64,000 nucleotides of DNA from Massilimicrobiota sp. An134 (lineage in GTDB: Bacteria; Bacillota_I; Bacilli_A; Erysipelotrichales; Coprobacillaceae). The translations under genes and the position numbers were made by a program. A model generated the notes under the pieces. It saw nothing but the letters and a program-made list of their open reading frames with translations, was not told where the DNA came from and made no database searches. Below are positions 15,220-45,447 of the stretch, piece by piece. Location of the stretch: NCBI RefSeq assembly GCF_002160815.1, contig NZ_NFLH01000008.1, forward strand, positions 1 through 64,000, read 5' to 3'. Numbering within the stretch: the first letter of the stretch is position 1; each line of letters begins with the position of its first letter.

Positions 15220-15360
15220 TCCTATTGATTTTATATATGCAACAATATATCCGTGAAAAACTCCCTCAGTAAACACGAGGGAGTTGTCAATTCTTTGACA
15301 ATATCACCTCGGCAACTTCATTAAGGTTTCCCCGTTGCTGTCTACGGTATATTGATTGCG
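15220..15360 (-). promoter_or_regulatory. L10 ribosomal protein leader with attenuator
   Basis: Between rplA and rplJ the minus strand reads ACAGCAACGGGG, TGCCGAGGTG and then an 8-bp GC-rich hairpin (ACTCCCTC / GAGGGAGT) followed by TTTTTC at about 15253-15285. This is the layout of the Firmicutes L10 leader: a binding region for L10-L12 followed by a terminator controlling rplJ-rplL. Confidence 0.8.
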
Positions 15361-15380
15361 TCTTTTTGTTATGATTTCAA

Positions 15381-41932: not shown

Positions 41933-43313
41933 GTTTTAATGCTTCATCAATCGCTTGAGCTGCTTTTTTACCAGCGCCCATAGCCAAAATAACTGTAGCT
42001 GCTCCAGTGACAACATCGCCACCAGCATAAACACCATCTTTAGATGTTTTCATTGTTTCTTCATCCACAATGATTCCACCCCATTTTTGAGTATCTAAAC
42101 CAGGTGTTGTCTGTCTGATTAATGGATTAGGACTTTGACCAATAGAAACAATCACTGTTCCCGTTTCAATAACAAAGTTAGAACCTTCCTTAACAACTGG
42201 TCTTCTTCTACCACTTTCATCAGGTTCACCAAGTTCCATTTCTACACATTCCATAGATTTAACCCAACCATCTTTGCCTTCAATTTTGACTGGATTTGTA
42301 AGTAACTTGAAAATAATGCCTTCTTCTTTAGCATGATGTACTTCTTCAGCTCTGGCTGGAATTTCTTGTTCACCACGACGATAAACAATATATACATTTT
42401 TTGCTCCTAAACGTTTTGCAGTTCTTGCAGCATCCATTGCGACATTTCCAGCCCCAATAACACAAACTGTTTCAGTAATTTTCACTGGTGTCGGATGATT
42501 TGGGAATTCATAACCTTTCATCAAATTGACACGTGTTAAAAATTCATTAGCTGCATAAACACCATTTAAATTTTCACCAGGAATACCTTGGAAACGAGGA
42601 AGTCCAGCGCCACTTCCAACAAAGATAGCTTCATAACCTTCTTCTTGTAATTCATCAATTGTTATAGAACGTCCAACAACAACGTTTGTTTCAAATTTGA
42701 CACCTAAATCAGCGACCCCATCAATTTCCTTTTGAACCAAATCTTTAGGTAAACGGAATTCAGGGATTCCATATGATAAAACGCCACCTGTTTTATGCAA
42801 AGCTTCAAAAACAGTCACATCATATCCTTTTTTCGCTAATTCTCCTGCACAAGTCATACCTGCAGGGCCACTTCCGACAACGGCGACCTTTTTTCCATTC
42901 TTTTCAATATGATTGTCTTTCTTTTGACCATGATCTCGATGATAATCAGCAACAAATCTTTCTAATCGTCCAATTCCTACTGATTCTCCTTTGATGCCAC
43001 GAACACATTTCCCTTCACATTGATTTTCTTGAGGACAGACACGTCCACAAATAGCTGGAAGAGCATTTTCCTGTGTAATAATGTCATATGCTTCTTCAAA
43101 GTTTCCTTTTGCAACTTCGGCAATAAATTCAGGAATAGGTACACCGACTGGACAACCATTCTTACATGGACTATGTTTACAATTTAAACATCTTGTAGCT
43201 TCTTCCATAGCCTGTTCTTTTGTATATCCTAATGCAACTTCCTTAAAGTTCTGATTTCTAATCTGAGGTTCCTGTTCAGGCATTTTCACCTTTTCTAATG
43301 ACATATTAGGCAT
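41925..43313 (-). CDS. nfnB: NADH-dependent ferredoxin:NADP+ oxidoreductase subunit B (GltD-like)
   Basis: A 462-residue GltD-type flavoprotein. The N-terminus has clustered cysteines for two [4Fe-4S] clusters (C-L-N-C-x3-P-C-x3-C-P and C-G-R-V-C-P), then an FAD Rossmann motif (G-S-G-P-A-G-M) and an NADP-binding motif (G-A-G-N-V-A-M-D-A-A). Such proteins are glutamate synthase small subunits or NfnB; the partner upstream (nfnA) and absence of gltB argue for NfnAB, which couples NADH and reduced ferredoxin to make NADPH by electron bifurcation. The start overlaps the nfnA stop. Confidence 0.88.
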   Translation of the reverse strand: MPNMSLEKVKMPEQEPQIRNQNFKEVALGYTKEQAMEEATRCLNCKHSPCKNGCPVGVPIPEFIAEVAKGNFEEAYDIITQENALPAICGRVCPQENQCEGKCVRGIKGESVGIGRLERFVADYHRDHGQKKDNHIEKNGKKVAVVGSGPAGMTCAGELAKKGYDVTVFEALHKTGGVLSYGIPEFRLPKDLVQKEIDGVADLGVKFETNVVVGRSITIDELQEEGYEAIFVGSGAGLPRFQGIPGENLNGVYAANEFLTRVNLMKGYEFPNHPTPVKITETVCVIGAGNVAMDAARTAKRLGAKNVYIVYRRGEQEIPARAEEVHHAKEEGIIFKLLTNPVKIEGKDGWVKSMECVEMELGEPDESGRRRPVVKEGSNFVIETGTVIVSIGQSPNPLIRQTTPGLDTQKWGGIIVDEETMKTSKDGVYAGGDVVTGAATVILAMGAGKKAAQAIDEALKQK

Positions 43314-44170
43314 TATTGAACACCTCCCATTAAATTACACATACGATTTGCTTTTTCATCCATTTGATGTTCTTCTTCTTTAAACATTCTTTGACGTGCC
43401 ATCAGTTCATCGAAATCAACTTGTAACCCGTCAAAATCTGGTCCATCAACACAAGCAAACTTAATTTTACCATCAACAGTTACACGACAACATCCACACA
43501 TACCTGTTCCATCAATCATAATTGGATTTAAAGAAACTGATGTTTTTATATTATGGGGTTTTGTAACAGCAACAACTGCTTTCATCATTGGCACTGGTCC
43601 AATCGCAATCACTTCATCAATCTCTTCACCTTGTTCAATCAAATCAGCTAACACTTGAGTTACAAAGCCTTTTCTACCAAGTGAGCCATTATCTGTTGTT
43701 ATATAAACATTTTTACAGAACTTTCTAAATTCATCAGCCCATAAAACATATTGTGCTTCTCTTCCACCAATAATCACATCAACCTCAACACCCATTTGTG
43801 CTAAAGCTCTTAACTGTGGATAAAGTGGTGCACTTCCTACACCACCAGCAACACCAATAACATGTTTTGAAGCATGTAATTTTGTTGGTTCTCCTAAAGG
43901 TCCTACAAAATCTGTAATTTCATCACCTTCATTTAATAAAGATAATGCTTTTGTAGAATATCCAACAATTTGATAAATAATTGTAATTGTTTCTTTTTTT
44001 CTATCATAATCAGCAATTGTCAATGGGATTCTTTCTCCATCATCACCCACTCTTAAAATGATAAACTGTCCTGGTTCACATTTTCTCGCAACATGGGGTG
44101 CATGAACAACCATTAACTCTACAACATCATTTAATTTTTCTTTGTGTAAAATCTTATACATTTCGATCAA
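43313..44170 (-). CDS. nfnA: NADH-dependent ferredoxin:NADP+ oxidoreductase subunit A
   Basis: A 285-residue ferredoxin-NADP reductase-like subunit. It has an FAD-binding barrel, the NAD(P) motif G-V-A-G-G-V-G-S-A-P, and a C-terminal [2Fe-2S] cysteine set in G-M-C-G-C-C-R-V and F-A-C-V-D-G-P-D-F. The same fold occurs in PyrK and sulfide dehydrogenase subunit B; the adjacent GltD-like gene indicates NfnA. The two form the electron-bifurcating transhydrogenase. Confidence 0.88.
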   Translation of the reverse strand: MIEMYKILHKEKLNDVVELMVVHAPHVARKCEPGQFIILRVGDDGERIPLTIADYDRKKETITIIYQIVGYSTKALSLLNEGDEITDFVGPLGEPTKLHASKHVIGVAGGVGSAPLYPQLRALAQMGVEVDVIIGGREAQYVLWADEFRKFCKNVYITTDNGSLGRKGFVTQVLADLIEQGEEIDEVIAIGPVPMMKAVVAVTKPHNIKTSVSLNPIMIDGTGMCGCCRVTVDGKIKFACVDGPDFDGLQVDFDELMARQRMFKEEEHQMDEKANRMCNLMGGVQ

Positions 44171-44190
44171 CCCCTCTCGTAGTTTAAAAA

Positions 44191-44291: not shown

Positions 44292-45080
44292 ATGAATAAA
44301 AAACTTATATTTTTTGATATAGATGGGACTTTGTTGGATGAACAGAGTGGATCTGTGCCAGCTTCTACAATTGAAGCTATTGAAAAAGCTCAAAAAAATG
44401 GTCATCTTTGTTTTATTAATACCGGTCGTCCTATTTCTACAATTGATAAGATCATCACTGATCTTCCTTTTGATGGATATGTCTGTGGTTGTGGAACCTA
44501 TATCGAATATCAACAAAAAATATTATTTCATACTGAATTAGATTTTGAACTAAGAAAAAAAGTGATTCAAAGCATTGATCAATATCAGGTCGATGCAATG
44601 TTAGAAGGAAAAAATGGTGTTTATTTTTCACAACATTTAAAGCACCCTTTTATTCAAGCTATTAAAAAGAAATATCAGGATCTTCATTTTCAAGTTCACA
44701 GTTTTTCTAGTCATGAGGATGTTCCTTTTGATAAACTCACTGTCTGGTATCAACCTGACACACCAATTGAAGCCTTTAAAAAAGCATTAGAAAACGACTT
44801 TCTTATTATACAAAGAGATATTGATTTCTTAGAAATTGTGCCTCTTCCATATTCTAAAGCAACTGGTATTCAATACTTGATTGATCATCTTGGATATACC
44901 TTAAAAGACACTATAAGTATGGGTGATTCCCTTAATGATTTACCTATGTTAACTTATACACATGAATCAGTTGCTATGGGAAATAGTCATCCTCTTTTAT
45001 TGGACCAAGTCACTTACATAACAACCCCTGTTAACCAGGATGGTATTCAACATGCTTTAGAACATTTTCATCTTATATAA
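44292..45080 (+). CDS. Cof-type HAD-IIB phosphatase
   Basis: A 262-residue HAD phosphatase. Motif I D-I-D-G-T-L-L is at residues 9-15; the late motif is G-D-S-L-N-D-L-P-M. Closely similar in layout to the proteins at 755 and 33079, ending V-x-Q-D-G-I-x-x-A-L-E-H-F. An AAGGAG site precedes the ATG. Its 3' end runs into the terminator hairpin shared with the antisense small-RNA candidate. Substrate unknown. Confidence 0.85.
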   Translation: MNKKLIFFDIDGTLLDEQSGSVPASTIEAIEKAQKNGHLCFINTGRPISTIDKIITDLPFDGYVCGCGTYIEYQQKILFHTELDFELRKKVIQSIDQYQVDAMLEGKNGVYFSQHLKHPFIQAIKKKYQDLHFQVHSFSSHEDVPFDKLTVWYQPDTPIEAFKKALENDFLIIQRDIDFLEIVPLPYSKATGIQYLIDHLGYTLKDTISMGDSLNDLPMLTYTHESVAMGNSHPLLLDQVTYITTPVNQDGIQHALEHFHLI

Positions 45081-45082
45081 AA

Positions 45083-45163
45083 GTAAAAAGAACGTGGGGA
45101 AACGTTCTTTTTGCTTTTATAGACGAATTTGATATATAGGGAGAGGGGTCGTCTATATTTTAT
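45083..45163 (-). ncRNA. Putative C-rich small RNA, copy 1
   Basis: Read leftward, a perfect TATAAT (45167-45172) precedes an about 80-nt unit: stem ATAGACGA / TCGTCTAT closing a loop with CCCCTCTCCC, a short A-rich linker, then the terminator AAAAAGAACGT-TTCCCC-ACGTTCTTTTT. The TATAAT box and the terminator suggest an independent transcript; the -35 is weak (TATAAG at 17 bases), with an alternative pair TTAAGA-17-TAAAAT slightly downstream. C-rich loops able to pair with Shine-Dalgarno sequences are the hallmark of RsaE/RoxS-type regulators. No expression evidence. The hairpin also serves as terminator for the plus-strand HAD gene. Confidence 0.5.
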
Positions 45164-45390
45164 CATATTATATGTCTTTTCTTAAGACACTTATATATTA
45201 ACCCAGCCATATGAATTCATTGTGAATTTCATAAGAACTTTATGTGAACTTTTTTAAATATTGCCATTTTAAACACAAAAAAAGAACGTGGGGAAACGTT
45301 CTTTTTACTTTTATAGACGAATTGGTATATAGGGAGAGGGATCGTCTATATTTTATCATATTATATGTCTTGTCTTAAGACACTTATATA
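45085..45390. repeat. Direct repeat of a 113-bp structured unit
   Basis: Copies at 45085-45197 and 45279-45390 match except for about five substitutions and one single-base deletion. Spacer 45198-45278 and the flank 45391-45430 share weaker similarity (ATGAATTC blocks), so the original duplicated unit was probably near 190 bases. Substitutions avoid the stems. Confidence 0.9.
45277..45356 (-). ncRNA. Putative C-rich small RNA, copy 2
   Basis: A second copy of the unit at 45083-45163, about 194 bases away, with few changes. It keeps TATAAT (45361-45366), the stem ATAGACGA / TCGTCTAT, the loop TCCCTCTCCC and the terminator with the UUUCCCC loop. A change in the promoter makes a perfect palindrome TGTCTTAAGACA between the -35 and -10 regions. 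The loop has U for one C, so the two RNAs could differ in targets. Confidence 0.5.
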
Positions 45391-45447
45391 CTACCGAGAA
45401 CTTATGAATTCTCTATGAACAATTTCTTAATTCACAGTTTTTCTTGA

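Follow-up and report, generated by a model that had tools for sequence, protein, structure and literature searches.

Tandem copies of a probable Shine-Dalgarno-pairing small RNA family with a response-regulator-type promoter in Massilimicrobiota and its relatives

The closest described counterparts of the locus analyzed here come from Listeria and streptococci. LhrC1-5, Rli22 and Rli33-1 of Listeria monocytogenes are multicopy, partly tandem sRNAs of 105-121 nt, whose stem-loop, linker and terminator hold CU-rich (UCCC) motifs binding Shine-Dalgarno (SD) regions, and whose expression is induced via the LisRK two-component system upon cell-envelope stress (PMC4132741, PMC8079631). The streptococcal csRNAs of the CiaRH regulon are likewise several sRNAs controlled by an OmpR-type regulator, with the direct repeat NTTAAG-N5-TTTAAG positioned ~10 nt before the -10 box (PMC3091779). 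Both systems, being multicopy and two-component-controlled, are better functional analogues of our locus than RsaE/RoxS, the model chosen in an earlier note on this DNA. A literature search returned no sRNA study of the bacterial group to which the locus belongs.

The locus is located in a 64,000-nt stretch of Massilimicrobiota sp. An134 (the window), where the same ~140 bp block occurs twice (45085-45226 and 45279-45419; 193-194 bp apart, 86-98% identity). The earlier note had recognized the duplication but underestimated its size (113 bp). It is quite probable that the block specifies two tandem copies of a trans-acting, regulator-induced, SD-blocking sRNA of ~110 nt, which supports the original proposal of tandem C-rich, probably SD-pairing sRNAs. 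Copy A (predicted ~109 nt; 45273..45381, minus strand) is delineated by a covariance-model match of 97.4 bits, by promoter geometry and by a three-hairpin fold, with a predicted start at 45381 and an end in the U tract at ~45273. Copy B (predicted ~110 nt; 45079..45188, minus strand) matches the model with 98.7 bits. These lengths supersede the ~80 nt expected at first, the predicted transcript including an extra 5' mini-hairpin. The two minus-strand hairpins noticed earlier (SL2 and the terminator) are present in both copies, the folds of which are stabler than 200 out of 200 dinucleotide shuffles (z -4.9 and -6.2).

In copy A, the 5' mini-hairpin (SL1, GUCUU-AAGAC-AAGAC; 45367..45381, minus strand) extends from the predicted +1, and a mini-hairpin at or beside the start is found in 53 of 53 family members when folded from six bases past either type of -10. 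The underlying dyad, TGTCTTAAGANAAGACA, was considered as a protein operator, being almost confined to sRNA loci, and is better read as this hairpin. SL2 (45312..45350 in copy A, with the stem UAUAGACGA / UCGUCUAUA; 45118..45157 in copy B; both on the minus strand and supported by fold and covariation) consists in the window copies of a stem of 8-9 bp, AUAGACGA/UCGUCUAU, closing a long loop that begins C/UCCCUCUCCC. This loop in copy A contains the CU-rich seed UCCCUCUCCCU (45331..45341, minus strand), the core of which is nearly invariant across copies; its counterpart within SL2 of copy B is CCCCUCUCCCU (45138-45148). Within the family, conservation is highest in the CU-rich SL2 loop, which mostly reads CCCCUCUCCC. 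The intrinsic terminators (45279..45306 in copy A, supported by fold and covariation, and 45085..45112 in copy B; both minus strand) share an 11-bp stem around a UUCCCC loop, and terminator loops without C-rich sequence occur in the TTGACA copies of g4 (see below) and in g12. Predicted transcript lengths range from 85 to 141 nt across the family (109-110 nt in the window). A longer class of 131-141 nt is seen in g4 (L106, L108, L109, L112, L113, L118); it has an extra hairpin with UAAUCCCCUC in the loop (UGAUCCCCUC in L113), and its members adjoin a HAD-type gene in several genomes.

Upstream of the sRNA copies, TTCAYA-N5-TTCATA forms a direct repeat with a period of 11 bp, followed after exactly nine bases by a -10 box, TAnnAT; this family-wide pattern likely constitutes the sRNA promoter. 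In copy A it reads TTCATA-N5-TTCATA-N9-TAGTAT (45388..45419, minus strand), a response-regulator-type direct repeat with its -10, and in copy B it is extended to an array of TTCACA/TTCTTA/TTCACA/TTCATA at 11-bp spacing, followed by N9 and TAATAT (45195..45248, minus strand; core promoter box at 45195-45226). All 53 copies carry either a TTCATA-box or a TTGACA promoter: the last half-site together with the -10 is present in 46/53 and the double box in 42/53, and TTGACA with a housekeeping -10 in 9/53, including all seven without the TTCATA box (shuffle rates of 2.9%, 0.1% and 0.9%, respectively). Both promoter types place the start at the 5' mini-hairpin. The TATAAT box that had been taken for the promoter (45360..45365, minus strand, in copy A, with a counterpart in copy B) comes after the predicted +1 and belongs to the transcript itself; moreover, no -35 element accompanies it across copies, and the spacing between it and SL2 is variable. 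A PhoP (phosphate) promoter, suggested by TTAACA in the b copies, was rejected, as the pst operon has TTTACA-TAATC-TTAACA and the TTCATA box occurs at envelope genes.

A DNA search of relatives revealed copies in 15 of 98 genomes, the carriers by pattern scan being Massilimicrobiota timonensis, Candidatus Stoquefichus, Longibaculum muris and Erysipelotrichaceae metagenome bins. The first covariance model, built from 12 Massilimicrobiota-type copies, has matches in 29 of the 43 genomes from the window's family, with 1-5 copies in each; the match in G012 (L063) resembles an ordinary terminator. With the second model, matches were obtained in 38/295 genomes of the order and 10/296 of the class, nearly all of them from the same family. 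The sole strong match outside the family (G262) is likely a contamination, because it is near-identical to a g4 copy and comes from an incomplete metagenome bin; the other outside-family matches inspected (L198-L201, E ~1e-4) miss the seed and were rejected as members. Another candidate RNA, distinct from these sRNAs, was observed at L199 ~1395-1590 (G327, same class, other family); it spans ~190 nt and folds into four hairpins, its loops are C-rich (CCCCCC, CUCCCCCC, AUCCCCCCC and UUCCCCC), its z-score is -9.65, and it has no Rfam match. Within the family, tandem copies occur in g1 and g4, and copies are found near adhE (g1, g4, g8, g12, g14), upstream of pyrG (g4, g12) and, in several genera, near an nfnA-like gene. 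In g8 (L114, L115, L116, L120) sRNA copies stand on both sides of a two-component operon (response regulator and histidine kinase), for whose regulator close homologues were found in g8 only.

Among the 53 aligned copies, standard pairs occupy 97.0% of stem cells as compared to 41-56% with the partner slid by 1-3 columns, the absolute figure leaning upward as the alignment was fitted to the model structure. Changes on both sides are seen in 17 of the 20 pairs (230 cells vs 53 in shuffles), and stems with very different letters can be picked out by eye, such as GCAUAGGUGA/UCACCUAUGC and GUAUAAGUGA/UCACUUAUAC; the earlier suggestion that structure is under selection is thus borne out overwhelmingly. 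The minus-strand reading yields 24 G-U cells vs 2 A-C cells, which identifies the minus strand as the RNA. By comparative analysis, the block is a true family of small RNAs, confined for the most part to the bacterial family that includes Massilimicrobiota, Stoquefichus and Longibaculum. What the comparison shows is a conserved minus-strand RNA with its fold, promoter and terminator, the conservation of its seed and the number of its copies; transcription itself we infer.

The same data bear on other readings of the block. The terminator of copy B, with its symmetric stem beginning 5 bp past the stop codon of a convergent HAD gene (44292-45080, plus strand), could also end this gene, and in the extreme case the block would be only a duplicated bidirectional terminator involving no regulatory RNA. 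Such a reading is highly unlikely, as conservation and covariation extend to SL2, the seed, the 5' hairpin and the promoter in copies from other surroundings, for example between same-direction adhE-linked genes and pyrG; the outcome that the earlier note had named as refuting, a block occurring in relatives merely as a convergent terminator and lacking a conserved promoter, is contradicted by the conserved promoters in varied contexts. Equally unlikely is a small peptide encoded by the RNA: an AUG inside AUAAUAUGAUAAAA does open a frame through SL2 in copies A and B, but it is missing in many copies (e.g. G004a, G034a, G009), and what the variation preserves is pairing, not codons. A functional plus-strand RNA, which would act as a trap for a CsrA-type protein through hairpin loops of GGGGA and AGGGAGAGGGG, draws on the good folding of hairpins with G-rich GGA loops; it is extremely improbable in view of the G-U over A-C excess in the minus-strand reading (24 vs 2 cells), the orientation of all promoters toward the minus strand, and the failure to find CsrA in the genome.

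In the preferred reading of the block as trans-acting sRNAs, an OmpR-type response regulator would bind TTCAYA-N5-TTCATA and switch on the individual promoter of each copy, the signal presumably being envelope stress. The 5' mini-hairpin probably plays a protective role, and SL2 would present the CU-rich seed CCCCUCUCCC in a single-stranded form, with the UUCCCC terminator loop as a second C-rich site in the window's genus. The seed is expected to pair with ribosome-binding sites rich in G, such as GGGAG or AGAGGGG, and to block translation initiation of selected mRNAs, the most likely mode of action by precedent of LhrC (PMC4132741) and csRNAs (PMC3091779). An alternative is that the main partner of the same sRNA family is a protein or a sponge sRNA, not mRNA ribosome sites. 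A single set of targets would not require a seed so strongly conserved, and RoxS is an example of a C-rich sRNA that sponge RNAs can bind (PMC8216469). On the other hand, among low-GC Gram-positive bacteria a loop complementary to SD-like sequence is the known signature of sRNAs that block the SD (PMC4132741), and no G-rich partner RNA was identified; overall, we consider this alternative unlikely.

To the box pattern, the window's genome has 66 matches at ≤2 mismatches vs 14 for the reversed control. One-mismatch boxes are located upstream of an operon of an OmpR-type regulator and a kinase (C15), DltB/DltA-like genes (C22), an LCP protein (C31), a RodZ-like gene (C8), a P-type ATPase (C4), a YjbM-like gene (C12) and a C89 gene that we take to be mreB. 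The C15 operon (G000:C15:20092; L121:3093-5657) encodes the OmpR-type response regulator together with a 631-aa kinase, its box recurring at envelope genes, and orthologues of the regulator keep an upstream TTCAYA-N5-TTCACA-N9-TATAAT. The C15 response regulator is probably autoregulated, and the shared box suggests that this envelope-type system also drives the sRNAs. An OmpR regulon of the C15 type was not found described in the literature searched. Another conserved response regulator (G000:C11) was rejected as the box-bearing regulator, as no TTCATA box is present upstream of it, and the two-component operon between the g8 copies was likewise set aside, its close homologues being limited to g8. 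Orthologues of the C15 regulator (73-91%) were found only in g1, g6, g7, g8, g13 and g19. The sRNA promoters nonetheless keep the box in g4 and g12, having C15 relatives of only 56-60%, in G007 and G017, with no C15 relative above ~35%, and in g14, with no clear C15 orthologue; therefore, another regulator may act there.

The pairing potential of the seed was assessed in a sample of 226 genes from the available stretches. Seed duplexes of ≤-14 kcal/mol were obtained at 50/226 ribosome sites vs 9/225 coding windows, several of the stretches having been chosen for GGGAGAG sites, which favours high counts. Shuffled C-rich loops reach the same level at a mean of 30.6 (maximum 81) of the 226 ribosome sites. 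Owing to the good matching of shuffled loops and to the choice of part of the sample, target specificity is modest. Good seed matches include an FMN reductase-like gene (C34:44684), PTS EIIC and nfnA, as well as genes named as a LytTR-type regulator and an AEC-type transporter (C67), as we presume them to be. A candidate target near the sRNA locus is the SD sequence GAGAGGGG (44171..44178, minus strand) of the nfnA-like gene 43313-44161, with a predicted duplex of -23.3 kcal/mol with the SL2 loop, and AGAGGGG at the nfnA ribosome site is kept in seven genomes (g1, g6, g19). The nfnA match is missing in several sRNA carriers, and scores of -16 or better occur in two genomes lacking the sRNA; because of this uneven conservation, the predicted targets are only leads. 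The nfnAB ribosome site is a plausible sRNA target, and the nearby metabolic targets foreseen in the earlier note have in nfnA a plausible candidate rather than a proven case.

A broader interpretation, which we put forward tentatively and consider possible rather than probable, is that the new multicopy family, having arisen independently of LhrC and csRNAs, serves an envelope-type OmpR regulon as its post-transcriptional arm, that its copies have changed inputs and a constant CU-rich seed, and that it ties envelope signals to fermentative redox via nfnAB. After duplication, inputs would have changed between a response-regulator box and a housekeeping TTGACA promoter, and g4 would have gained a C-rich hairpin, with the seed remaining constant. 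The tandem copies, with their swapped promoters and fixed seed, offer a clean system for studying how sRNA paralogues split inputs and share outputs.

The sRNA block has no Rfam family, i.e. it is a previously unlisted one. At the gathering score nothing in the block is matched, and no RsaE/RoxS, LhrC or FsrA is found at threshold; the only window match at that score is an ordinary ribosomal protein L10 leader (RF00557, 58 bits) at 15246-15365 (minus strand). FsrA, an iron-sparing RNA of Bacillus, resembles the family in directing unpaired C-rich stretches (CCCCUCU) at SD sites; it was rejected, as its model (RF02273) scores 17.3 bits vs a threshold of 80 and its C-rich part is not aligned to the SL2 loop. 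The Bacillus sRNA ncr1015 (RF02449) gives a weak full-length match, to which AU-rich letters and the terminator stem AAAGAAC contribute most; it was likewise rejected, with scores of 29.2 and 25.0 bits vs a threshold of 60 and with the seed outside the match. RsaE/RoxS share low-GC Gram-positive hosts and C-rich loops able to pair with SD sequences (the CCCCUCUCCC loop in our case). They differ by the lack of a covariance-model match, RsaE being absent at gathering and relaxed thresholds alike, as the earlier note anticipated in proposing a separate family, and by the multicopy nature, other promoter box and other contexts of the family described here. The csRNAs have in common with it a regulator driving related sRNAs, the repeat spacing to the -10, SD-complementary sequence and a two-stem design; in contrast, their SD-complementary sequence is unpaired between the stems and covers also the AUG, the repeat is NTTAAG-N5-TTTAAG rather than TTCAYA-N5-TTCATA, and no csRNA family was matched in Rfam. 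As for LhrC, it contains three repeated CUCCC..UUUU motifs instead of the seed CCCCUCUCCC and has LisR-responsive positions at ~-55 to -75 instead of a box abutting the -10; the block has an extra 5' mini-hairpin at +1 and no Rfam or covariance-model match to LhrC, and the envelope-stress induction of LhrC has here its sole counterpart in an OmpR-type box common to envelope genes. On the other hand, both families have several homologous copies per genome (1-5 in our case), some of them in tandem, and a CU-rich motif in loop A as well as in the terminator loop (UCCCUCUCCC and UUUCCCC in the window copies, albeit not in all relatives). A multicopy, SD-targeting sRNA in this group, probably under two-component control, would be a third lineage with an LhrC- or csRNA-like design, suggesting a recurrent solution for linking envelope signals to translation.
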